Shown one piece after another: positions 21,133-33,164 of a stretch of DNA of 64,000 bases. Position 1 is the stretch's first letter. Every line of letters starts with the position of its first letter. The notes beneath the pieces were generated by a model. The model did no database searches. It saw only the letters and a list, made by a program, of their open reading frames with translations, and was not told where the DNA came from. Source of the DNA: Alistipes sp. (GTDB lineage Bacteria; Bacteroidota; Bacteroidia; Bacteroidales; Rikenellaceae); contig JAFQHI010000009.1 of the NCBI GenBank assembly GCA_017398045.1, forward strand, positions 62,001 to 126,000, read 5' to 3'. Position numbers and translations under genes: made by a program.

Positions 21133-23622
21133 ATGAAGATAGCAAAACTCCTGATTTGTGCGGCTCTCTGTATCGCGTGCGCGCACACGGCACAAGCGCA
21201 CCAGCGCGTAGAGGCGGGTCGTTTGAAGCTCTGGTACAAGCAGCCGGCCTCGAATTGGAACGAGGCACTGCCCGTGGGCAACGGCCGACTGGGTGCCATG
21301 ATTTTCGGCACGGCCGATGACGAGCTGCTGCAACTGAACGAAAACACGCTCTACAGCGGTGACCCCGAGAGCCGTTGGGACGAGTTGGATATCACCGCGA
21401 CCTACCCCGAGATGGTCGCGCTGCTCGAAAGCGGCAAATACCTCGAGGCGGCCGAGCTGCTCAAGCAGTGGACGGGTCGCCTGCACGAGTGTTACCAGCC
21501 CCTGGGCGATTGGCACATCCACGACTACCGCGGCGGCAAGGCCAAGAGCTACCGTCGTTACCTCGACCTGGAGCGTTCGGTGGCCACCGTGCAGTTCGAG
21601 CGCGACAACTACAAATTCCGTCGCGAGATTTTCGCCTCGCACCCCGATAAGGTGATTGTCATGCGCCTGACGACCGACTGCCCGGTAGGTTGGGACATCG
21701 CGCTGCGCCTCTCGTCGCCCCATCCCGTGAAGAGCAAGATTGATGCCCGCAAGGGAATACTCTCGATGGGCGGACAGGCTCCGGGGCGCGTGGACCGTCG
21801 CAACTATTCGGACTTTGAGGCGTGGGGACATGAGGCACGCCACCCCTACCTCTTCAACGAGGATGGCTCGCGCACGGGTAAGCCCCGCGTGCTGTATGGC
21901 GAGGATATCGACCACCGCGGTATGTTCTTCGAGGGTCGTCTCGAGGTGCGCGTTTCGAATCCCAAATCGATGACCGATATGGGTGGCCAGCTCCGTATTC
22001 GGGGCGAGAAGGAGATTCTGCTGATTTTCTCGGCCGCCACGAGCTATAACGGCCCCTTCCGCAGCCCCTCGACCGATGGCGTGGATGCCGTAAAAAAGGC
22101 CGAAGAGCCGCTCAAGGCCCTCCGCACGAAGAGCTACGAAAAGATGCTCGCAGACCATGTGGCCGATTACCAGTCGCTCTTCAACCGCCTCTCGCTGACC
22201 CTGCCGTCGGATGCCGAAGCCGAGCTGTTGCCGACCGACCAGCGCATCCAGCGTTTTGCCCGCCAATTCCGTGCAACGGGCGCACCGACCGACCAGGAGT
22301 TGGTGACGCTCCTCTTCCAATATGGCCGTTATCTGATGATTAGCGGCTCGCGCGAGGGCGGACAGCCCCTCAACCTGCAAGGCATCTGGAACAAAGACCT
22401 CATCCCCTCGTGGAATTCGGGCTACACGGCCAACATCAACATCGAGATGAACTATTGGCCTTCGGAGGTGGCCAACCTCTCGGAGTGCCACCGTCCCTTC
22501 CTCGAGATGATTAAGGAGTGTGCCGAGACGGGACGCGAGACGGCTCGCAAGATGTACCATCGTCGCGGCTGGGTGGGTCACCACAACTGCTCGATTTGGC
22601 GCGAAACATTCCCCAACGATGGCGGTGCCGCCACGGTCTTCTGGCCGATGATGGGTGCCTGGTTCTCGTCGCACCTCTGGGAACACTACGCCTACACGGG
22701 CGACAAGGAGTTCCTCACGAAGGAGGCCTATCCCGTCATGAAAGGGGCTTCGGAGTTCTTCCTCGATTGGCTCATTCAGGACAAGGATGGCTATTGGATT
22801 ACCCCCGTCAGCACCTCACCCGAGAATCTCTTCCTGGTGCCGGGTACGGACCAGGCCTGCGGTGTTTCGCAAGGCTCGACGGGCGATATGTCGATGATTC
22901 GTGACCTCTTCACGCACACGCTCCGCGCGGCCGAGATTGCCGACGTGGATGCACCGCTACGCGACACGTTGCAGATGCGCCTACAGCAGTTGCTCCCCTT
23001 CCGCGTGGGAGCCTTCGGCCGTCTGCAAGAGTGGAACAAGGATTTCATGGACCAGGATATCCACCACCGCCACGTGACGCACCTCGTTTCGCTCTATCCC
23101 TTCGACCAAATCACCCCTGCAACGCCCGACCTCTTTGCGGCTGCCCGCCAGACGCTCGAGATTCGCGGTGACGAGGCCACGGGCTGGTCGAGCGGCTGGA
23201 AAATCAACCTCTGGGCGCGTCTGCTGGATGGGGAGCGCGCCTATAAACTCATCGGCACGCTGTTGCGCCCCGTGGGCTTTGGCCCCCAGGTGGAGCAGTC
23301 GTCGGGTGGCGGCGTCTATATGAACCTCTTCGACGCCCATCCCCCTTTCCAAATCGACGGCAACTTCGGTCTGACGGCCGGTGTCTGCGAGATGCTGATG
23401 CAGAGCCATGAGGGGGCTATCCACCTCATGCCTGCCGTACCGGCAGCCTGGCGCACGGGTTCGATTCGCGGTCTGAAGGCACGTGGCGGCTACACGATTG
23501 ACATGACGTGGTGTGACGGCACGGTGACCGAGCTGAAGATTCACTCCCAAACGGGCAAGCGGTGCGAGGTGCGCTCCTCGTGGAGACTGCCCGAAGGGGA
23601 TTACTTTGTCAATTGTCAATAA
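21133..23622 (+). CDS. GH95 alpha-L-fucosidase/alpha-L-galactosidase
   Basis: An 829-residue secreted enzyme (signal MKIAKLLICAALCIACAHTAQA), full length for GH95: N-terminal beta-sandwich from WYKQPASNWNEALPVGNGRLGAM, linker, (alpha/alpha)6 barrel with NLQGIWN and NINIEMNYWPSE (about 414-452; the Asn pair that activates water), the acid-Glu segment TSPENLF (about 560), and DAHPPFQIDGNFG near 735-747. Family members cleave terminal alpha-L-fucose or, in some pectin loci, alpha-L-galactose. First gene of the 12-kb operon; next gene 33 bp away. Neighbours favour a rhamnogalacturonan-II role. Confidence 0.92.
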   Translation: MKIAKLLICAALCIACAHTAQAHQRVEAGRLKLWYKQPASNWNEALPVGNGRLGAMIFGTADDELLQLNENTLYSGDPESRWDELDITATYPEMVALLESGKYLEAAELLKQWTGRLHECYQPLGDWHIHDYRGGKAKSYRRYLDLERSVATVQFERDNYKFRREIFASHPDKVIVMRLTTDCPVGWDIALRLSSPHPVKSKIDARKGILSMGGQAPGRVDRRNYSDFEAWGHEARHPYLFNEDGSRTGKPRVLYGEDIDHRGMFFEGRLEVRVSNPKSMTDMGGQLRIRGEKEILLIFSAATSYNGPFRSPSTDGVDAVKKAEEPLKALRTKSYEKMLADHVADYQSLFNRLSLTLPSDAEAELLPTDQRIQRFARQFRATGAPTDQELVTLLFQYGRYLMISGSREGGQPLNLQGIWNKDLIPSWNSGYTANINIEMNYWPSEVANLSECHRPFLEMIKECAETGRETARKMYHRRGWVGHHNCSIWRETFPNDGGAATVFWPMMGAWFSSHLWEHYAYTGDKEFLTKEAYPVMKGASEFFLDWLIQDKDGYWITPVSTSPENLFLVPGTDQACGVSQGSTGDMSMIRDLFTHTLRAAEIADVDAPLRDTLQMRLQQLLPFRVGAFGRLQEWNKDFMDQDIHHRHVTHLVSLYPFDQITPATPDLFAAARQTLEIRGDEATGWSSGWKINLWARLLDGERAYKLIGTLLRPVGFGPQVEQSSGGGVYMNLFDAHPPFQIDGNFGLTAGVCEMLMQSHEGAIHLMPAVPAAWRTGSIRGLKARGGYTIDMTWCDGTVTELKIHSQTGKRCEVRSSWRLPEGDYFVNCQ

Positions 23623-23655: not shown

Positions 23656-25596
23656 ATGAAAAAACAACTCCTTTTGGGTGCTTTGCTGCTCGGCGGTCTG
23701 CTGTGGACGCCGCGCGTAGAGGCACAACAGGTTATCGAGGCAACGCCCGAGACCTTCAACGAGGCCGTAGCGGCATTGCGCAAGGCGGTCAAAAAGCAAA
23801 AAGAGGATGTCGAGCTTCGCCTGCATGGCGGTACCTACTTCCTGCAGGAGCCGCTTCTGATTGACGAGACGCTGGGCGGCAAGAACGGCAAGAGCGTAAA
23901 GTTCGCCTCGGTGAAGGGCGAAGAGGCCATCTTGAGCGGTGGCGTCGAGATTACGGCCTGGGAGCAGGTGCAGGGCAACCTTTACAAGGCCCCCTTCAAA
24001 CACGACAAGAAGCTCCGCACCCTCATCGTGGGTGGCAAACGCGCCCGCATGGCCGGTATGAACGAACCGGTGAAGGCACTCGGCAGCTATGGCGAAATCG
24101 AGATTACGGGCAACGAGGCCTGGGCCTTCGGTGCCGGTAAGACCCCCAAAGGCATCCGCTTCGAGCAGAGTGCCGAGGTGATGCCCTATCGCAACCCCGA
24201 AGATGTGGAGCTGATTCAAAACAACGTCTGGACCGAGAAGATTCTCTGCGCTGCCGACGTGCAGAAATGGGGCAAGGAGATTGCCATCGAGTTGCAGCAG
24301 CCCTACTCGGCCATCCTGAACTCGCTGGCATGGGCCGGTAAGACGAAGTTCGAGGGTTCGTTCCTCATTCGCAACGCCTTCGAGCTGCTCGATGAGCCGG
24401 GTGAGTTCTACTTCGACCGCGCCGAGCAGACGATTTACTACATGAGCCATGGCGAGCATCCGGCCGACGTGAAGGTCATCGCCCCGATGACCGAGGGTCT
24501 TATTCGCATTCAGGGTTCGAGCTGCTCGTCGAACGTGGAGAACGTCACCATTGAAAACCTCACCTTCTCCTACGATGCCTGGAATCTGGTCGATATCGAG
24601 GGTTCGCACGGCTTTGGCGGCATCCAGACGCTGGGCCTGGCGATGAAGTACATCCCCGACGGCAACTGGCACCCCACGAAATACAACAGCGTCGATGTTC
24701 CCGACGGCACGATTCAGGTCGAGAATGCCACGGGCATCCGCATCATCCGCAACCGCTTCCTGCACCTGGGTTCGGCCGTGGCCGTGAATATGGCCAACGA
24801 TGTGACTCATTCGGAGGTGGTGGGCAACCTCTTCAACGACTGCCTGGGTAATGCCGTGGCCGTGGGTCACCCCCAGCACTACGAAATCGGCGATGGCGAG
24901 AAGGGTGCCGTCTATGCACCGGGTATCGAGGGGCTGTGCCAGCATATCGATATCTCGAACAACCTGATTCGCAACGTCTCGCTCGACTTCCGCCAGGTGG
25001 AGGCCATCGTAGGTTTCTTCTGCAAGAACGTGAAGATTGACCACAACGACATCTATGGCACCCCCTACGGCGCGATTGCGCTGGGTTGGTGGTGGGGCAA
25101 CGCCCGCATCCCCGAGTCGAAGAATGCCGGTGAGAACTCCATCAGCTACAACCGTTGCGGCCATACGCACACGATGCTGACCGATGGCGGTATCATCTAT
25201 ATGCTCGGCCGTCAGCCGGGTTCGGTGGCACGTCGCAACTACCTCTTCGATGGTCCGCGCTGCATCTATCCCGATGACGGTTCGTCGGGTTGGCTCATCG
25301 AGGAGAATTTCGTTGTGAGCCTCTACCAACTCTGGTTGCACATCGACTCGGACCGCAACTACGAAATCACGATGCGCAACAACCACGTCAAGGATAACCG
25401 CCTCTGCAACAGCGGCAACGGCACCATCATCGAGGGTACGAAGGTCTATCGCAACATCCCCTTCGGCGACGAGGCTCTGGCCATTCAGGACGGTTCGGGC
25501 TTAAGCCACGAGTATCACGACCTGATGCCCGAGAAGGAGTATGAACCGATTATGGTGATTCCGACCGTGGGCGCAAAGCGCAAAGCGGTGTTCTAA
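23656..25596 (+). CDS. Secreted right-handed beta-helix protein, GH141-like
   Basis: A 646-residue secreted protein (signal MKKQLLLGALLLGGLLWTPRVEAQ). N-terminus LRLHGGTYFLQEPLLID followed by an insert domain, then parallel beta-helix coils from about 290 (NVTIENLTFSYDAW, IRIIRNRFLHLG, HIDISNNLIRNVS, VKIDHNDIYGTPYGAI). The layout resembles GH141, the family of the B. thetaiotaomicron rhamnogalacturonan-II fucosidase BT1002; other beta-helix hydrolase families cannot be ruled out by eye. No lipobox. It lies between GH95 and a propeller enzyme in the same operon, supporting a glycan-cleaving role. Confidence 0.7.
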   Translation: MKKQLLLGALLLGGLLWTPRVEAQQVIEATPETFNEAVAALRKAVKKQKEDVELRLHGGTYFLQEPLLIDETLGGKNGKSVKFASVKGEEAILSGGVEITAWEQVQGNLYKAPFKHDKKLRTLIVGGKRARMAGMNEPVKALGSYGEIEITGNEAWAFGAGKTPKGIRFEQSAEVMPYRNPEDVELIQNNVWTEKILCAADVQKWGKEIAIELQQPYSAILNSLAWAGKTKFEGSFLIRNAFELLDEPGEFYFDRAEQTIYYMSHGEHPADVKVIAPMTEGLIRIQGSSCSSNVENVTIENLTFSYDAWNLVDIEGSHGFGGIQTLGLAMKYIPDGNWHPTKYNSVDVPDGTIQVENATGIRIIRNRFLHLGSAVAVNMANDVTHSEVVGNLFNDCLGNAVAVGHPQHYEIGDGEKGAVYAPGIEGLCQHIDISNNLIRNVSLDFRQVEAIVGFFCKNVKIDHNDIYGTPYGAIALGWWWGNARIPESKNAGENSISYNRCGHTHTMLTDGGIIYMLGRQPGSVARRNYLFDGPRCIYPDDGSSGWLIEENFVVSLYQLWLHIDSDRNYEITMRNNHVKDNRLCNSGNGTIIEGTKVYRNIPFGDEALAIQDGSGLSHEYHDLMPEKEYEPIMVIPTVGAKRKAVF

Positions 25597-25663: not shown

Positions 25664-27307
25664 ATGAAGGTTTTACGATATATGGCCGTGGCTCTTTTGG
25701 CCATGTGCGCCCTCACGGCAACGGCATCGAGCCACTATAAGACAGCCCCTTACAGCGTAGTAAAGGGCGGTAAGTCGTTCACCACCGACCACTATGTAAA
25801 CCCCTTTGCAGGCTCAAAGCGCAGCGTGTTGGATTTGGCCGTCGAGCTGGAAGGGATGCAGGGTTTCCGCCTTGCAGTCAATGAAAAGGGTGCGATGCAG
25901 CCCGCCACCATCGAGCTGCAACTCCGCCGCTCGGGTAACCTGCTTGTAGCCGCCACCTCGCGCAAGGCCATCGAGGCCGTGGCTTGGGGCAAAGGCAAGC
26001 TCAACGCCACCCCCGCACTGAAACAGGCCCTGCGCATCACCGAGCTGCCCGCGATGGACATCTACGCCATCCGCTATGGAGCCGGCAAGCAGAGCTTCAC
26101 CATTCCCGAGGGGATGCAGGGTCAGGTAGCCGTAGTCGGTTTCACCTCCGTCAGCACCTTTACGGGCCGTGATGCGGAGCTGGCCACGGGCGAGAAGTAT
26201 CCCGCCTTTGTCATCGAGGGTTTCTCGGAGCTGCCTGCGTTGTTTGACATCATCGGTGGTCAGGACGACCCCGTGGTGAACGAGGGTATGCCCGGTACGG
26301 AGGGCATCCAAGGCGGTTTCGAGGGTGGCCAGATGATTAAGCTGGGCGACACCTACCATATGTTCCCCACCGAGCGTGCCGGTGAAATTGGCGAGCCGGC
26401 CCGTTTCGACCGCATCAAGACCCGCATCGGCCACTGGACGAGTAAGGATGCCATCCATTGGGAGCGTCAATCGACCCTCTATCAGTCGAGCGGTACGTAT
26501 GCCATCTCGCACTACGACCACCCGATGAACGACCGTCGTGCCGCCATCTGGAGCTATATGCCGATTTTCAACAAGGAGAAGAATCGCTGGCAGGGTCACT
26601 ACCTGGCCTATACGTGCGACTTCGACGTAGCTCCCAACCACTCGTTTGGCCGCATCTGGCGTTGCGAGTCGGTCGTAGAGGGCATCGAGGGCATCGGTGG
26701 TCCCTACCGCGACTGCGGCATCGTCATCGAGCCGGGTCTTGACAGTGAGCTGTGGGAGGGTCGCCAGGGCGTCGCCTCGTTCTTCCCCTACCAGGTGGGT
26801 GACAAGTGGTACGGCTTTATCAGCGGTGCCTACCCCTACAAGACCAAGGAGGATTACCCCTTTGGCGGCAAGCCGACCCATTGGTATGTCGGTCTGGCCG
26901 AGTCGGACAATTTGGAGGGTCCCTTCACGCGCATGAAGGAGCTGAACCCCATCACCTCGATTCACCCCCGCTTTGTGGAGAACCCCATCGTTTCGCAACT
27001 GCCCAACGGTCTCTATATCGCCGTCTTCGACGGTGGTCCGGAGTGGCTCAACCTGCCGAACATGATTGCCTACACCCTCTCGAAGGATGGCATCAACTGG
27101 AGCGAAGCACACTACCTGCCGATTGACACGAAGGTGAAGAAGTGGTGGCACACGATGCGCACGCCGCTAGGTCTGATTCCCGAGGGCGATGACATCTACA
27201 CGATTGTCTATGCCGCCATCAACAACGATATGCGCTTCCACCCGATGGGTATGGTGCAGGTGAAACTCAACCGCGAGGTGTTGGAGGAGATTACGAAGAA
27301 ACTCTAA
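25664..27307 (+). CDS. Secreted beta-propeller protein, possible glycoside hydrolase (GH143-like hypothesis)
   Basis: A 547-residue secreted protein (signal MKVLRYMAVALLAMCALTATA). An N-terminal beta-sandwich-like region (about 35-180) is followed by a region with five-bladed propeller traits of GH43/GH32-like enzymes: GGQDDPVVNEG (about 203-213), GHWTSKDAIHWERQST, HYLAYTCDFD, YGFISGAYPY, VGLAESDNLEGPF and IAYTLSKDGINWSEA. Candidate acidic catalytic residues are the Asp pair in QDDP and later Asp/Glu, not proven. I do not recognise the family with confidence. Position 16 bp before a sugar-acid aldolase and next to GH95/GH141-like genes suggests it frees the acid sugar the operon imports, possibly Dha as for GH143. 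Confidence 0.6.
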   Translation: MKVLRYMAVALLAMCALTATASSHYKTAPYSVVKGGKSFTTDHYVNPFAGSKRSVLDLAVELEGMQGFRLAVNEKGAMQPATIELQLRRSGNLLVAATSRKAIEAVAWGKGKLNATPALKQALRITELPAMDIYAIRYGAGKQSFTIPEGMQGQVAVVGFTSVSTFTGRDAELATGEKYPAFVIEGFSELPALFDIIGGQDDPVVNEGMPGTEGIQGGFEGGQMIKLGDTYHMFPTERAGEIGEPARFDRIKTRIGHWTSKDAIHWERQSTLYQSSGTYAISHYDHPMNDRRAAIWSYMPIFNKEKNRWQGHYLAYTCDFDVAPNHSFGRIWRCESVVEGIEGIGGPYRDCGIVIEPGLDSELWEGRQGVASFFPYQVGDKWYGFISGAYPYKTKEDYPFGGKPTHWYVGLAESDNLEGPFTRMKELNPITSIHPRFVENPIVSQLPNGLYIAVFDGGPEWLNLPNMIAYTLSKDGINWSEAHYLPIDTKVKKWWHTMRTPLGLIPEGDDIYTIVYAAINNDMRFHPMGMVQVKLNREVLEEITKKL

Positions 27308-27323
27308 AAAACGAAAATACAAA

Positions 27324-28226
27324 ATGAGTAAGCGCAAGTATGCAGGCGTGGTCGTGCCGATGGCCACCCCTGTCAAGGGCGGTTCAGTCGATTTGGAGGC
27401 CACCCGTAAGATTATTCGCTCGTTTGTCGAGGCGGGCGTTGATGCCCTCGTGATGGGAACCACGGGCGAGGGCAACCTCGTACCGCAGGCCGAGGGTATC
27501 GAGATGGTACGCGCAGCTGTGGAGGCAGCCGACCATCGCATCACGATTTATGCCGGTGTCACGGGACTTTGCCTGAAGGAGCAACTCAAACAAATCGAGG
27601 GCTTCAAAGAGGCCGGAGCCGATGTCGCGGTGGCCATTCTGCCGAGCTATTATGCCCTCACCGAGGAGCAGATGGTGGCCTACTACACCGCTCTGGCCGA
27701 GGAGTCGGTCCTGCCCGTCATGCTCTACAACATCCTCGCCACGACCCACCTCTCAATTCCCGTCGATGCGGTGCGTAAGCTGGCCGCCCACCCCAACATC
27801 GTGGGTCTGAAGGATTCGGAGCGCGACCTGGAGCGCATGGCACAGTGCATTGCCGTAAGAAACGAGGCCGACGATTTCGCCTACTTCTGCGGCTGGGCTG
27901 CCCAATCGGCCCACTCGCTCGAGCTGGGTGCCGACGGCATCGTCCCCTCGACGGGTAACTTCGTGCCGAAGCACTTCCAAAAGCTCTATGAGGCCGCCGT
28001 TGCGGGCAACATGGAGGAGGCAAACCGCCTGCAGCAGCTCACCGACGAGATGGCCAAGGTCTATCAGCAGGGCCGTCCCCTGGGCAAGCAGCTGGCTGCC
28101 CTGAAGTGCATCATGCAGGGTCTCGAGCTTTGCACGACGGAGATGTTCGCCCCCCTGACGGAGCTTTCCGAGGAGGAGTATCAGACCATCCGCGAGCAGA
28201 TTGCCCAATTCGACCTCACTATTTAA
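27324..28226 (+). CDS. DapA/NAL-superfamily aldolase or dehydratase
   Basis: A 300-residue class I (Schiff-base) TIM-barrel enzyme. Seen: GTTGEG (about 46-51) carboxylate-binding loop, MLYNI (catalytic Tyr, about 135-139), and GLKDSERD (Schiff-base Lys, about 164-171). Superfamily members act on 2-oxo acids: N-acetylneuraminate lyase, KDG aldolase, dihydrodipicolinate synthase. The operon lacks lysine-biosynthesis genes and contains a transporter, dehydrogenase and acid-sugar kinase, so a catabolic 2-keto-3-deoxy sugar-acid aldolase is the best reading; 2-keto-3-deoxyaldonate dehydratase is the alternative. Released pyruvate plus an aldehyde would feed the next enzymes. Confidence 0.85.
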   Translation: MSKRKYAGVVVPMATPVKGGSVDLEATRKIIRSFVEAGVDALVMGTTGEGNLVPQAEGIEMVRAAVEAADHRITIYAGVTGLCLKEQLKQIEGFKEAGADVAVAILPSYYALTEEQMVAYYTALAEESVLPVMLYNILATTHLSIPVDAVRKLAAHPNIVGLKDSERDLERMAQCIAVRNEADDFAYFCGWAAQSAHSLELGADGIVPSTGNFVPKHFQKLYEAAVAGNMEEANRLQQLTDEMAKVYQQGRPLGKQLAALKCIMQGLELCTTEMFAPLTELSEEEYQTIREQIAQFDLTI

Positions 28227-28259
28227 CCCCCTAAAAACCCGACTTGTTAAGAAACCACT

Positions 28260-29807
28260 ATGCATTGGATAGATATTACGCTGGTCATTGCCAGCATCGT
28301 GTTTGTGATGCTCTTCGGTCTGAAGTTCGCCCACAAGCAGGACTCGACCAATAGTTATTTTGCCGCAGGCGGCTCGGTGCCGGCCTGGGCAATCGGTATG
28401 TCGATTTTCGCCACGCTGATTTCATCGGTTACCTTCCTTGCCTACCCGGGTGCCGCCTATGGTGGCAGCTGGATTCTCTTGGTGCAGGGTCTGATGGTGC
28501 CGATTGTCCTAGTGGGTATGATTTGGTTTATCGTACCCCTCTTTAGAAAGGCCATCAAACTCTCGACCTATGAGTATTTCGAGCGTCGCTTCGGCTTCGG
28601 AGCGCGTCTCTACGGCTCGATTGCCTTCCTTTTGACCCACTTCTCGAAGCTCGGCACGGTCTTCTTCCTCGTGTCGCTTGCCATTTCGCAGTTCATGGGC
28701 TGGGATATCTACATGGTCATTATCGTCATCGGTATTGCCGTGACCTTTATCACCCTCATTGGTGGTATGGAGGCCGTGATTTGGATGGATGTAATTCAGG
28801 GCTTCATCCTTATCGTGGGTGGCATCATCTGTGCAGCCCTGCTGCTCTTCACGCCCGAAGGCGGCCCGTCGGCCGTATGGGAGGTGGCCATGCGCGACAA
28901 CATGATTAACGTGGGCGAGTTCCACTGGAGCTTCGTCGAGCTTACCTTCTGGGTCATGGCCATCAACGGTGTCTTCTACGCCATCCAGAAGTACGGCACG
29001 GACCAGACCATCGTGCAGCGTTACCTCACGGCCAAGGATGACCGCTCGGCCAAGCGTGCCGCCTACATCGGTGTACTGACCAGCGTGCCGGTTTGGACGC
29101 TCTTCATGTTCATCGGTACGTGCCTCTACGCCTACTACCAGATTGAGGGTGCCGAGGTTGTTGCCGGCATGAAGGCCGACGAGGTGTTCCCCTACTTCAT
29201 CGCCCATGAGTTGCCGATTGGCGTGAAGGGTCTGATTATCTCGGCCCTCGTAGCGGGTGCCATCTCGTCGCTCGATTCGGACCTGAACTGCTTTGCCGCC
29301 ATCGGTGTGCAGGACTACTACGTGCGCTTCCGACCCGAAAGTTCGGATCGTCAGCGACTGGTGTTGGGTCGTTGGATTGTGGCTATTGCCGGTCTGGCCT
29401 CGATTGGTATCGCCTCGATTTACGCCTTCTGGGGTGGCGAGGGTATCCTCGGTGTATTGTTCGGTCTTTACGCCATCTTCTCGTCGGGTATCGTAGGTCT
29501 GTTCCTGCTGGGTCTTTTAATCAAGCGAGCCAACAAGCAGGGCTTGTGGGTCGGTCTTATTGCCTGCATCCTCTTCACGGCCTATGCCGTGCTGACCTCG
29601 TCGAAATTCACGATTGACGGTGAGAAGCAGATTCTTATGGACCTCGGCAGCTGGAATTTCACGCACCACAAGTATATGTTGGGTGTCTATAGCCACCTGA
29701 TTGTCTTCTTTGTCGGTTGGGCCGCATCGTACCTCTTCCCCGCACCGAAGGTGGACGACAGCCTGACGATTTATGGTTATTTGAAGGACCGCAAGGCCGC
29801 AAAATAA
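28260..29807 (+). CDS. Sodium:solute symporter (SSS family)
   Basis: A 515-residue inner-membrane protein with about 13 hydrophobic helices, starting MHWIDITLVIASIVFVMLFG. SSS signatures include YFAAGGSVPAWAIGMSIFATLISSVTFLAYPG (about 32-63, sodium-site helix 1), GGMEAVIWMDVIQG (about 169-182) and SALVAGAISSLDSDLN (about 330-345). This family brings in sugars, sialic acids and other solutes with Na+. Placed directly after the aldolase gene, it probably imports the acid sugar freed by the secreted enzymes; substrate is inferred. Confidence 0.92.
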   Translation: MHWIDITLVIASIVFVMLFGLKFAHKQDSTNSYFAAGGSVPAWAIGMSIFATLISSVTFLAYPGAAYGGSWILLVQGLMVPIVLVGMIWFIVPLFRKAIKLSTYEYFERRFGFGARLYGSIAFLLTHFSKLGTVFFLVSLAISQFMGWDIYMVIIVIGIAVTFITLIGGMEAVIWMDVIQGFILIVGGIICAALLLFTPEGGPSAVWEVAMRDNMINVGEFHWSFVELTFWVMAINGVFYAIQKYGTDQTIVQRYLTAKDDRSAKRAAYIGVLTSVPVWTLFMFIGTCLYAYYQIEGAEVVAGMKADEVFPYFIAHELPIGVKGLIISALVAGAISSLDSDLNCFAAIGVQDYYVRFRPESSDRQRLVLGRWIVAIAGLASIGIASIYAFWGGEGILGVLFGLYAIFSSGIVGLFLLGLLIKRANKQGLWVGLIACILFTAYAVLTSSKFTIDGEKQILMDLGSWNFTHHKYMLGVYSHLIVFFVGWAASYLFPAPKVDDSLTIYGYLKDRKAAK

Positions 29808-29816
29808 GAAGAAACG

Positions 29817-30965
29817 ATGAATTTAATCACTTTGCAACAACCCTCGCGCATCGTTCTGGGCGAGGGTGCCGCTGAGCGTTTTGCCGAAGAGTTTTTGGCA
29901 CACGGCTTTCAACGACTTTTTCTGCTCACTGCACCTCCGATTCGCCCCCTGATTGAGGGTATTCTCCAAAAAATCGAGGAGGCCGGAGCCACGATTCAAA
30001 TCTACGACCGCATCACAGCCGAGCCGGCCCTGGATGAGGTGGTGGGTATCATCGACGAGGCTCGCGCGTTCGGTGCCGACAGCATTGCCGGTATCGGTGG
30101 CGGTTCGGTACTCGACACGGCCAAGATTGTGGCCGCCTTCCTTAAGAGCAAGCAACAGGTTGCCGACTGCTTCGGCACGGGACTTATCAAGGAGCGCGGT
30201 GTTTGGTGCGCCTGCCTGCCGACCACCTCGGGTACGGGTAGCGAGGTTTCGCCCAACGCCATCCTGCTGGACCGCGCCGAGAAGCTCAAGAAGGGCATCG
30301 TAAGCCCCTACCTCTTGGCCGATGCCGCCTATATCGACCCGCTGCTGACGCTCACCGTGCCGGCCAAAATCACGGCCGAGACGGGTATGGATGCCCTCTC
30401 GCACTGCATCGAGAGCTTCACGAACCGCCATGCCCACCCCGTAGTGGATAGCTACGCACTGAAGGGCATTGAGCTGATTGCCAAAAATCTGGAGCGAGCC
30501 GTGAAAGATGGACAGGACCGTGAGGCACGTGCCGCCCTCTCGCTCGGCAGCTACTATGGAGGTCTGTGTCTGGCACCCGTCAATACGGCAGCCGTCCACG
30601 CCCTCTCCTATCCGCTCGGTGGTGAGTACCACATCTCGCACGGTTTGGCAAACGCCATCCTGCTGCCGCCCGTCATGCGCTTCAACCTGAACTCGAACCT
30701 CGAAAAGCACGCCGCCATCGCTCGCGTCATGGGGGTCGATTGCGAGGGTCTTTCGACGGAGGAGGCCGCGCTCAAGGGGGTTGAGTTTGTAGCCGAGTTG
30801 GCTACGCGCTGCGGTATTCCCGCAACCCTCACCGAACTGGGTATTCCGCAGGACAAGGTCGAAGAGTTGGCCGATGCCGCGATGAAGGTGACGCGCCTGC
30901 TGGTGAATAACCCCCGCGAGGTGACACGCGAAGATGCCATTGCCATTTACAACGAATTATATTAA
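29817..30965 (+). CDS. Iron-containing alcohol dehydrogenase (FucO-like family)
   Basis: A 382-residue NAD(P)-dependent group III alcohol dehydrogenase. Seen: GGGSVLDTAK (about 95-104, nucleotide binding), TSGTGSEVSPNAIL (about 138-151), metal-ligand positions in TGMDALSHCIES (about 194-205) and VHALSYPLGGEYHISHG (about 263-279). Length is standard. Starts 9 bp after the transporter and ends 6 bp before the PdxA gene, so surely co-transcribed. It could reduce the aldehyde left by the upstream aldolase; the related FucO reduces lactaldehyde, and 4-hydroxybutyrate-type dehydrogenases handle C4 semialdehydes. Confidence 0.9.
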   Translation: MNLITLQQPSRIVLGEGAAERFAEEFLAHGFQRLFLLTAPPIRPLIEGILQKIEEAGATIQIYDRITAEPALDEVVGIIDEARAFGADSIAGIGGGSVLDTAKIVAAFLKSKQQVADCFGTGLIKERGVWCACLPTTSGTGSEVSPNAILLDRAEKLKKGIVSPYLLADAAYIDPLLTLTVPAKITAETGMDALSHCIESFTNRHAHPVVDSYALKGIELIAKNLERAVKDGQDREARAALSLGSYYGGLCLAPVNTAAVHALSYPLGGEYHISHGLANAILLPPVMRFNLNSNLEKHAAIARVMGVDCEGLSTEEAALKGVEFVAELATRCGIPATLTELGIPQDKVEELADAAMKVTRLLVNNPREVTREDAIAIYNELY

Positions 30966-30971
30966 AAAGCT

Positions 30972-32006
30972 ATGAATAATTTACCGATTTTAGCCATTAC
31001 GATGGGCGACCCCGCGGGTGTAGGCCCCGAGATTATCGCCATGTCGCTCGCCCAGGAGTACCCCTATACGGTCTGCCGTCCGGTCGTCATTGGCGACGCC
31101 AAGATGATGGAAAAGGGCATCGCTTCGGCCAAGGTTGCATTGCAGGTGCGCCCCATCGAGCAGGTGTCGCAAGCACAATACGAGCGCGGTGTAATCGATG
31201 TCTTGGACCTCAACCTGATTGACCCGGCAACCTTCGCTTATGGCGAGGTGCAGGCCCAATGCGGTCATGCCGCTTTCGAGGCGGTACGCACGGCCATCGA
31301 GTTGGCCATGAAGGGTGAAGTGGATGGCACGGTGACGGCTCCGCTCAACAAGGAGGCCCTGCACGTAGCGGGCCACAACTTTGCCGGCCACACGGAGATT
31401 TATGCCCACTACACCGATACGAAGAAGTATGCCATGCTCTTGGCCGACGATAAGATGCGTGTGATTCACGTTTCGACCCACGTTTCGTTGCGCGAGGCGT
31501 GCGACCGAGCCAAGAAGGAGCGTGTGATTGCCGTCACGGAGCTGATTCGTGAGGCCTGCCTGAGCTTCGGCATCGAGGACCCGCGTATCGGTATTGCCGG
31601 TCTGAATCCCCATGCGGGCGAGGGCGGTCTGTTCGGTGATGAGGAGATTCGGGAGATTATCCCCGCCATCGAGGAGATGAAGCAGAAGGGTTGGAATGTG
31701 GATGGTCCCGTACCGCCCGATTCGCTCTTCTCGCGCGCACGCTCGGGTCAGTTCGATGGTTGCGTGGCCATGTACCACGACCAGGGCCACATCGCCTTCA
31801 AGGTGGGTGGTTTCGAGTGGGACCGCGAGACGCAACGCATGGTGGCCGTGAAGGGTGTGAACATCACCCTCGGACTGCCGATTATCCGCGTTTCGGTGGA
31901 CCATGGTACGGCCTTCGACGTAGCAGGTAAGGGCATCGCCAACCCCGATGCACTGCTCATGTCGATTGAGTATGCCGCCTTGATGGCCAAAAACCGCAAA
32001 AAGTAG
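30972..32006 (+). CDS. pdxA2: PdxA-family 4-phospho-acid dehydrogenase, catabolic PdxA2 type
   Basis: A 344-residue oxidative decarboxylase of the PdxA fold. Metal-binding His residues lie in FAGHTEIYAHYT (about 136-147), LNPHAGEGGLFGDEE (about 211-225) and MYHDQGHIAFK (about 266-276). Canonical PdxA makes vitamin B6 from 4-phosphohydroxythreonine; PdxA2 paralogues beside DUF1537 kinases oxidise 4-phospho-D-threonate or -erythronate to dihydroxyacetone phosphate and CO2. Here the kinase is 15 bp downstream and no other B6 gene is near, so the catabolic role is favoured. Confidence 0.88.
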   Translation: MNNLPILAITMGDPAGVGPEIIAMSLAQEYPYTVCRPVVIGDAKMMEKGIASAKVALQVRPIEQVSQAQYERGVIDVLDLNLIDPATFAYGEVQAQCGHAAFEAVRTAIELAMKGEVDGTVTAPLNKEALHVAGHNFAGHTEIYAHYTDTKKYAMLLADDKMRVIHVSTHVSLREACDRAKKERVIAVTELIREACLSFGIEDPRIGIAGLNPHAGEGGLFGDEEIREIIPAIEEMKQKGWNVDGPVPPDSLFSRARSGQFDGCVAMYHDQGHIAFKVGGFEWDRETQRMVAVKGVNITLGLPIIRVSVDHGTAFDVAGKGIANPDALLMSIEYAALMAKNRKK

Positions 32007-32021
32007 CCACGAAAGCAGACA

Positions 32022-33164
32022 ATGCGAACCTATGTAATTGCCGATGACCTGACGGGGGCTGCCGAAATTGCCGGTGTAGCCCACCGTTTGGGTTGTCGTG
32101 TGCGCCTCACCACGTCCGTGGATGGATTTCTGGCCGAAGACGAGGTGGTCGTATTGGCCACCGACACCCGCTCGATGAGCCGCGAGGAGGCCTTGCAGAC
32201 CACCCGCGAAGTGGTTCAAACATTCGCTTCGATGCCCGGACGCGAACGGGTCGAGCGACTCTTCAAAAAGACCGATTCGGTCTTGCGCGGCCACGTGGTG
32301 GCGGAGTTGGAGGCCCTGCAAGCAGCAGGCTACTCACGCGCCCTGCTCCTGCCGGCCAACCCCTCGAAAGGGCGACTGATTCGTCGTAAAAGCTACACCA
32401 TCGGCGGCCTTCCGCTCACACGTACCCTCTTTCGCCACGACCCCGAATTTCCGGCCCGAACCTCCAACGTGGTTCAACTGATGGGGGGTGGCATACCTTA
32501 TATTACTACACGCACGCGAAGAGTTCGCCTCAACGAGGGGGTCACGATGGGTGAAATCGGTTCGATGGAGGAGCTGCGCAGTCATGTGGCCCGCTTCGAT
32601 AGCGAGGAGGTCGTTTTAGCCGGCAGTGCCGACCTCTTTCAGTGTCTGATGGAGCAACACGGAAAAACAGCGACAAAGACCGACTCCTTTGCAGGATTTG
32701 GCAATCGCCGTTCGCTCATCGTCTTGGGAAGTACCGCCCGCCACAACCTCTTCGAGGAGCCTTTCTTTGTGCGTAACAAGGTAGCAATCAGCCCCATGCC
32801 AGACGATGTATTTGCAGGTGGCTCGCCCGCGGGTTGGATACAATCGGCCGAGCAACTTGCCCGCCAAGCCGACTCGCTGCTGTTGCGTATTCCGCAACAA
32901 ATCACCCACGAAGCGGGAAAAGCCCTGCAACTGCGCCACCAAATGGCCAAGACGGTCATGGCTCTTATCGCGCGATTGAAGCCCGAGGAGGTGGTTATCG
33001 AGGGTGGTGCTACGGCCTTCACGATTTTGCACGCGCTCAAATGGGGTGAGCTGACCATCGCCAACGAGATTGCCCCGGGTGTCGTGCGCCTGCATCACGC
33101 CCCAAGCAACACCTACCTCACCTTCAAACCGGGCAGTTACCCCTGGGGAGGGTGTTTTCGGTAG
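32022..33164 (+). CDS. DUF1537 four-carbon acid-sugar kinase (OtnK/DtnK family)
   Basis: A 380-residue kinase. N-terminal substrate domain opens YVIADDLTGAAEIAGVA (about 3-19) with FKKTDSVLRGHV (about 84-95); the C-terminal nucleotide domain has VVIEGGATAF (about 326-335) and FKPGSYPWGG near the end. DUF1537 enzymes phosphorylate D-threonate, D- or L-erythronate or related C4 acids at O4. Pairing with PdxA2 rather than LtnD/OtnI/OtnC genes matches the reported D-threonate route. Last gene of the operon; its stop codon touches a low-complexity repeat cassette. Confidence 0.88.
   Translation: MRTYVIADDLTGAAEIAGVAHRLGCRVRLTTSVDGFLAEDEVVVLATDTRSMSREEALQTTREVVQTFASMPGRERVERLFKKTDSVLRGHVVAELEALQAAGYSRALLLPANPSKGRLIRRKSYTIGGLPLTRTLFRHDPEFPARTSNVVQLMGGGIPYITTRTRRVRLNEGVTMGEIGSMEELRSHVARFDSEEVVLAGSADLFQCLMEQHGKTATKTDSFAGFGNRRSLIVLGSTARHNLFEEPFFVRNKVAISPMPDDVFAGGSPAGWIQSAEQLARQADSLLLRIPQQITHEAGKALQLRHQMAKTVMALIARLKPEEVVIEGGATAFTILHALKWGELTIANEIAPGVVRLHHAPSNTYLTFKPGSYPWGGCFR

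Follow-up and report, generated by a model that had tools for sequence, protein, structure and literature searches.

A predicted catabolic route for the rhamnogalacturonan-II sugar acid Dha in Alistipes: a five-gene block that recurs with GH143

No pectin domain is more complex than rhamnogalacturonan-II (RG-II), and RG-II-degrading enzymes are known from a human gut bacterium. One of its sugars, 3-deoxy-D-lyxo-heptulosaric acid (Dha), is described as D-lyxo in configuration and, in plants, as found solely in RG-II (PMC12168206); Dha and 3-deoxy-D-manno-octulosonic acid (Kdo) are given as the acidic sugars of the two disaccharides linked to the RG-II backbone (PMC12282258). The founder of glycoside hydrolase family GH143, from Bacteroides thetaiotaomicron, is reported to free Dha from RG-II and to carry a second site that is a beta-L-arabinofuranosidase (PMC6811678). 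The present analysis concerns a stretch of 64,000 nucleotides (hereafter the window) from Alistipes sp. (assembly GCA_017398045.1, contig JAFQHI010000009.1, positions 62,001 to 126,000), in which an aldolase, a symporter, an iron alcohol dehydrogenase (Fe-ADH), a PdxA homologue and a DUF1537-family kinase are encoded side by side. This five-gene set is quite probably a route for the breakdown of Dha, all substrates and step directions being deduced from sequence.

Several described systems resemble the set in part. D-threonate is reportedly catabolized by the kinase DtnK together with PdxA2 (a pathway attributed to Zhang et al. in 2016), with PdxA2 turning D-threonate 4-phosphate into dihydroxyacetone phosphate (DHAP). 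The window shares with that system a DUF1537-family kinase beside a PdxA homologue, with a predicted phosphorylation, dehydrogenation and decarboxylation of a C4 acid to DHAP; it differs in that its kinase is divergent and shorter and is usually accompanied by genes for an aldolase, a reductase and a transporter, through which a C7 acid would be converted to D-threonate. N-acetylneuraminate catabolism employs the aldolase NanA and a sodium:solute symporter (SSS). The window aldolase belongs to the same superfamily and would likewise release pyruvate by retro-aldol cleavage, and the nearest solved structure of the window SSS symporter is 5nv9 (254 bits, the next structure scoring 157), a sialic-acid symporter; here, however, cleavage would leave an acid aldehyde as the second fragment, and a reductase, a kinase and a PdxA homologue replace the amino-sugar route. 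Kdo aldolase (EC 4.1.2.23) also draws pyruvate from a plant 3-deoxy-ulosonic acid, although its other product is D-arabinose and a C4-acid module is unneeded. D-apionate catabolism (OiaK/OiaX) uses a DUF1537-family kinase for an RG-II sugar and appears in a GH143 neighbourhood (L173), but that pair has no adjacent aldolase or PdxA, and the NCBIfam OiaK model is not among the matches of the window kinase at E<=1e-5. Finally, RG-II loci of the BT_1020 type (GH143/GH142; BT_1020 is the GH143 founder enzyme, and Pfam PF24067 is named for its N-terminal propeller) have GH143-type propeller, GH142-like, apiosidase, GH28 and GH95 genes in common with the loci studied here. The work described on them concerns Dha release (PMC6811678), whereas the proposal here concerns the fate of Dha afterwards. 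The same source terms Dha a seven-carbon analogue of sialic acid, and DUF1537 enzymes are stated to include D-threonate kinase (PMC10971088).

In the window, the five open reading frames (ORFs) lie on the + strand at the positions first annotated, each complete from ATG to stop. The first encodes a DHDPS/NAL-family class I aldolase of 300 aa (27324..28226; PF00701, 188 bits), the predicted Dha aldolase, and is followed by the SSS symporter of 515 aa (28260..29807; SSF, 145 bits), the predicted Dha importer, and by a group III Fe-ADH of 382 aa (29817..30965; PF00465/PF25137, 134 + 194 bits), a predicted D-threuronate reductase. The PdxA homologue of 344 aa (30972..32006; PF04166, 355 bits) is predicted to be a decarboxylating D-threonate 4-phosphate dehydrogenase, and the DUF1537-family kinase of 380 aa (32022..33164; PF07005 SBD_N, 111 bits; PF17042 NBD_C, 31 bits, partial) a D-threonate kinase. 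The successive intergenic gaps measure 33, 9, 6 and 15 bp, so that the operon of five genes with gaps of 6-33 bp seen in the initial annotation is borne out in ORFs, strand, Pfam families and spacing; its interval holds for the five genes, but the true run is longer, extending back to a GH95 gene at 21133 and comprising eight genes on the same strand, with the five-gene set as its 3' end.

The chemistry was checked by hand in Fischer projection, where the hydroxyls of Dha at C4, C5 and C6 point left, left and right. Besides pyruvate, retro-aldol cleavage between C3 and C4 yields a C4 aldehyde acid that keeps C5 left and C6 right and is D-threuronate; with its aldehyde reduced and numbered from the carboxylate, this has C2 left and C3 right and is D-threonate. 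The stereochemical argument already made for this locus, that Dha gives pyruvate plus a D-threo C4 acid and from it D-threonate, is thus correct. According to the proposed route, the symporter (a GntP permease in locus L134) would import Dha, the aldolase would split it into pyruvate and D-threuronate, and the Fe-ADH would reduce the latter to D-threonate; the DUF1537 kinase would then phosphorylate D-threonate to its 4-phosphate at the cost of one ATP per Dha, and the PdxA homologue would dehydrogenate and decarboxylate this product to DHAP and CO2. In sum, Dha (C7H10O8) equals pyruvic acid (C3H4O3) plus triose (C3H6O3) plus CO2, and since this sum balances, the reduction by the reductase and the oxidation by the PdxA2-type enzyme offset each other; the predicted net result is a redox-neutral conversion of each Dha to two C3 units and CO2. 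Dha is favoured as substrate because a C4 sugar acid is what a module of the DtnK/PdxA2 type would suit, and is favoured over Kdo because it alone, among the two 3-deoxy-2-ulosonic acids of RG-II, yields a C4 acid on retro-aldol cleavage.

The gene families and the intact catalytic residues are direct observations. In the window aldolase, the Schiff-base lysine, catalytic tyrosine and threonine pair of class I DHDPS/NAL aldolases are all present, and across its clade K163, T46 and T47 are found in 65/65 members and Y135 in 64/65. It departs from DapA itself: the substrate arginine of DapA (R138 in E. coli), which binds the carboxylate of the aldehyde, is replaced by T140 (in 65/65 clade members; the DapA-type protein of the same genome has R at this position), and the score of 173 bits lies under the equivalog cut-off of 206. 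Nor is this gene the sole DapA candidate of the genome, or the PdxA homologue its sole PdxA, given that other DapA-type gene(s) and a second PdxA gene are present. Two residues specific to the aldolase clade, R171 (64/65) and E166 (65/65), are absent from the genome's own DapA-type protein and from a second aldolase clade discussed below, and are candidate contacts for the C7 carboxylate. The Fe-ADH has the features of group III, with D192, H196, H261 and H275 invariant (75/75), presumably as metal ligands by analogy with FucO; the PdxA homologue has those of its family, keeping H140, H214 and H269 in all, or all but one, of 84 members.

For the last two enzymes the family is clearer than the subfamily. 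The PdxA homologue scores 353 bits against a cut-off of 583 with the NCBIfam equivalog model for D-threonate 4-phosphate dehydrogenase (PdxA2), and the score with another PdxA model is higher, at 380 bits, and likewise below the cut-off of that model; its nearest solved relatives include 6e85, named D-threonate 4-phosphate dehydrogenase. The kinase reaches 85.9 of the 450 bits set for the NCBIfam D-threonate kinase DtnK, over its N-terminal part only. Among curated models the best names are those of D-threonate enzymes, yet with scores so far under the cut-offs the initial designations DUF1537 kinase and PdxA2-type dehydrogenase are valid at the level of family and fail at that of the curated equivalogs. 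By its SBD_N and NBD_C domains and its fold, the kinase does belong to the DUF1537 family: its structural model is a confident one (pLDDT 91.6), and all eight structures that Foldseek matched to it at E<=0.001 are of the DUF1537 family, among them 3dqq, a 'putative tRNA synthase' by title that joins the family by sequence. Identity to the window kinase ranges from 27 to 71% within a set of 30 members. As a separate observation, a 468-aa DUF1537-type protein elsewhere in the window genome (L030:8515-10427, on G000:C15) lies beside a small protein that looks NUDIX-like by eye, and a small gene like it follows the kinase at L087:11089-11664.

Conservation of the block was observed at two scales. 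A search of 393 genomes of the window's order with the window kinase gave matches in 13, of which 12 form a clade; the thirteenth, G176 (L029; 43 bits), has an ordinary DUF1537 kinase with PdxA only beside it, and was left out of the clade together with G674 from a phylum-wide sample (43-45 bits over ~150 residues for the two). At the 11 clade loci besides the window, PdxA adjoins the kinase in 11/11, and symporter, aldolase and dehydrogenase are present except where the contig ends. A scan of 84,980 species genomes returned at least 493 relatives of the kinase; the best 80, a selection favouring close relatives, and the 11 loci from the order were compared as a set of 91, some cut by contig ends. 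The complete set of five genes is found in 62/91 loci (57 in the order of the window and 5 as FeADH-ALD-PDXA-KIN-symporter), which argues that the grouping is not due to chance. The others comprise 11 loci with FeADH-PDXA-KIN, 7 without Fe-ADH, 2 without the symporter, 4 with PdxA and kinase only, 2 with the kinase alone and 3 with other partial sets. Carriers include Prevotella, Bacteroides, Mucilaginibacter, Pleomorphovibrio and Melioribacter, and beyond these two KSB1 metagenome-assembled genomes (MAGs), one of them with PdxA and kinase only (L126), and a Phycisphaerae MAG in which the set is complete. In L078, from a MAG labelled Paenibacillus, the aldolase, symporter, dehydrogenase and PdxA are 61-65% identical to those of the window, as in the Prevotella loci, and the label is for this reason probably wrong.

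The block is coupled to the GH143-type propeller, tracked here as PF24067, both through shared genomes and through adjacency in Bacteroidota and one KSB1 MAG. Within the order, 24/393 genomes match PF24067, 20 of them strongly (>280 bits); weak partial matches (G008, G014, G195 and G291 in the order; G589, G605, G685 and G766 in the phylum) were not counted. Strong PF24067 is present in 12/12 genomes with the kinase clade versus 8/381 genomes without the kinase (naive Fisher p 5e-18, this and the other Fisher values treating genomes as independent of phylogeny). Including G176 gives 13/13 (p 1e-19), and counting all 24 PF24067 matches of the order gives p 1e-16. Carriers of both kinase and GH143 cover eight family labels, with same-family relatives in f1, f3, f43, f65 and f97 that have neither. 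General use of RG-II or pectin was controlled for with the apiosidase family PF13204, which exceeds its cut-off in 77 genomes of the order, all 20 GH143 genomes among them: the kinase is found in 0/57 genomes that are apiosidase-positive and strong-GH143-negative (p 3e-9). Among named kinase carriers, 70/79 possess PF24067 (35/39 + 35/40, leaving out L070). This named set overlaps the sampled ones: L116 matches the contig of G211 in length, and L122 that of G647.

Physical linkage points in the same direction. Six loci (L024, L028, L094, L134, L135 and L163) have a GH143-type gene no more than 10 kb from the block, and in G064 the distance is ~15 kb on the same contig; this occurrence beside GH143 in other genomes, along with the 12/12 and 70/79 counts above, is a positive outcome of the check that the initial annotation had proposed. 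In L024 and L028, the propeller gene and a GH142-like partner (so assigned from a Pfam fold name) are encoded separately, just upstream of the aldolase gene, with an additional small ORF called in between in L024; in L135, from Pleomorphovibrio, 82 bp separate the end of the propeller gene from the aldolase downstream. The KSB1 MAG locus L134 reads FeADH-ALD-PDXA-KIN, then a GntP permease (382 bits) in the place of the symporter, then GH143 (330 bits), and a swap of importer beside a Dha hydrolase is the outcome that a Dha uptake operon would predict. The same operons in L024 and L028 also contain a BNR/sialidase-like propeller fused to a xylose-isomerase-like TIM barrel (L024:15501-17441, L028:15904-17892). 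The recurrence of the block and its coupling to GH143 give strong, independent backing to the initial assignment to Dha catabolism, at the level of predicted activities; the block probably represents a dedicated Dha pathway via D-threuronate that delivers all seven carbons to central metabolism, an exchangeable module found across Bacteroidota and also in KSB1 and Phycisphaerae MAGs, with either a symporter or a GntP permease as importer.

A number of results weigh against this interpretation, or at least against a universal or strict coupling. In the window genome itself (2.36 Mb, 56 contigs, 92% complete), GH143 and the five-gene block are on separate contigs: the block is on C39, and the GH143-type gene (PF24067, 392 bits, in a 1124-aa frame) is at G000:C31:22663-23367, ~10 kb from an apiosidase gene. 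Eight of the 20 strong GH143 carriers of the order lack the kinase. In the phylum-wide sample of 345 genomes, the kinase clade occurs in 5, strong GH143 in 20 and both in 3, an association far weaker than that of the order (p 0.0016, or 0.016 when the window's own genome is removed); 17/20 GH143 carriers of this sample are without the kinase, 9 of the 17 bearing the genus label g212, and 2/5 kinase-clade genomes are without GH143 (G545 and G647, of one family label, whose third kinase carrier, G502, has GH143 ~9 kb from the block). Nine of the 79 named kinase carriers, all MAGs, have no PF24067, and the control genome of Bacteroides ihuae has PF24067 and no PF07005. The block itself is not constant either: 7/91 loci (L071, L081, L106, L112, L117, L119 and L123) carry the other four genes without Fe-ADH, so that an aldehyde reductase would need to be encoded elsewhere, and 11/91 show FeADH-PDXA-KIN only. 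To these are added the kinase and PdxA scores far under the curated D-threonate cut-offs. Inspection by eye of 13 GH143 neighbourhoods of the 24 different kinase-less GH143 genomes revealed neither the block nor a recognisable substitute set (a 14th stretch viewed, L169, belongs to a kinase carrier). The block is therefore at most one Dha route, not a universal one; elsewhere, Dha may be set free by bacteria that make no use of it.

Among the alternatives, the aldolase could act on Kdo, the remaining genes serving something else. The Kdo side chain stands next to that of Dha in RG-II; the same loci would free both sugars, and the aldolase may take both. The two sugars have their C4-C6 configuration in common and belong to the same polymer (PMC12282258). 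Cleavage of Kdo, however, yields neutral D-arabinose, with no need for a C4-acid kinase or PdxA, and the presence of all five genes together in 62/91 loci is hard to reconcile with such a division, which makes this explanation very unlikely. A simpler Kdo candidate is also at hand in a second DHDPS-type aldolase clade, represented in the window genome at G000:C31:3799-4701 (L031), with relatives in L143, L144, L146, L147 and L149-L153. This clade is in or near RG-II loci, at most ~13 kb from GH143 in L143, L144, L147 and L153, and is accompanied by its own symporter in 8/10 loci and by no kinase or PdxA; its members are thus candidate Kdo aldolases, judging by this gene context.

There is similarly little chance that the set degrades a different component of RG-II, for example apiose by way of apionate, with the GH143 link reflecting a shared RG-II lifestyle. 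DUF1537-family kinases do act in apionate catabolism (as the model names OiaK and OiaX indicate), apiosidase genes lie within GH143 loci, and 12/12 kinase-clade genomes of the order also have the apiosidase PF13204. The association does not hold in the other direction, given the 0/57 apiosidase-positive genomes without strong GH143 that have the kinase; moreover, the window kinase has no OiaK model match, the aldolase would be left without a role, and OiaK/OiaX-like genes for apiose are found elsewhere beside GH143, in L173. At that locus (L173:1041-3700, G755), an OiaK-like kinase (409 bits with the OiaK model, itself below the 700-bit cut-off) and an OiaX-like RuBisCO-like decarboxylase are located a few genes from GH143, which suggests catabolism of an apiose-derived acid inside an RG-II locus. 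Least probable of all is a general operon for C4 sugar acids (threonate or erythronate) or 4-hydroxythreonine with the aldolase acting elsewhere, since, although DUF1537 and PdxA pairs without other genes do occur (G176/L029, L165) and the best-named curated models are D-threonate enzymes, those pairs belong to a separate kinase clade (43-45 bits), the aldolase and symporter keep company with the window kinase clade, and the coupling to GH143 would have no reason.

The initial annotation regarded the Dha route as undescribed, and searches of the open-licence PubMed Central literature, where 'threuronate' and 'threuronic acid' have zero occurrences, turned up no account of bacterial Dha catabolism; the claim stands as far as those searches reach, and novelty is provisional. 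If the Dha pathway is real, its five genes would complete the route by which Dha carbon reaches pyruvate and triose phosphate, filling a gap in pectin digestion, and would give functions to clades of kinases, aldolases and transporters in gut, rumen and environmental bacteria. It would also supply a genomic marker that separates Dha users from mere Dha releasers. The route offers a clean and readily testable prediction with defined intermediates.

Upstream of the aldolase, the run begins with a GH95 glycoside hydrolase of 829 aa (21133..23622, +; PF22124, 570 bits), with homologues at 37-42% identity in the GH143 loci L166, L167 and L177, followed by a GH141-like beta-helix protein of 646 aa (23656..25596, +; PF21231 GH141_M, 41 bits, partial) that is 51% identical to a gene of the GH143 locus L153, and by a putative glycosidase of 547 aa (25664..27307, +); the gaps from GH95 to the aldolase are 33, 67 and 16 bp. 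Among named genomes, the locus has its closest relatives in MAGs of Alistipes and other Rikenellaceae, which makes Bacteroidales the presumed order. The 547-aa protein was considered as a GH143 Dha hydrolase and rejected, because it matches no Pfam family at E<=10, PF24067 included, and a 20-sequence profile compared with solved structures retrieved no BT_1020 structure at E<=1. The same profile related its N-terminal domain to the C-terminal domain of BPa0997, a GH138 enzyme acting on RG-II (E 3e-12), and gave two marginal matches besides; its AlphaFold model, weak in places in the propeller, has a fold like GH117/GH43 propellers. The family to which it belongs, with a beta-propeller after a GH138-like N-terminal domain, is shared with Flavobacterium and Bacteroides and is possibly a new RG-II glycosidase.

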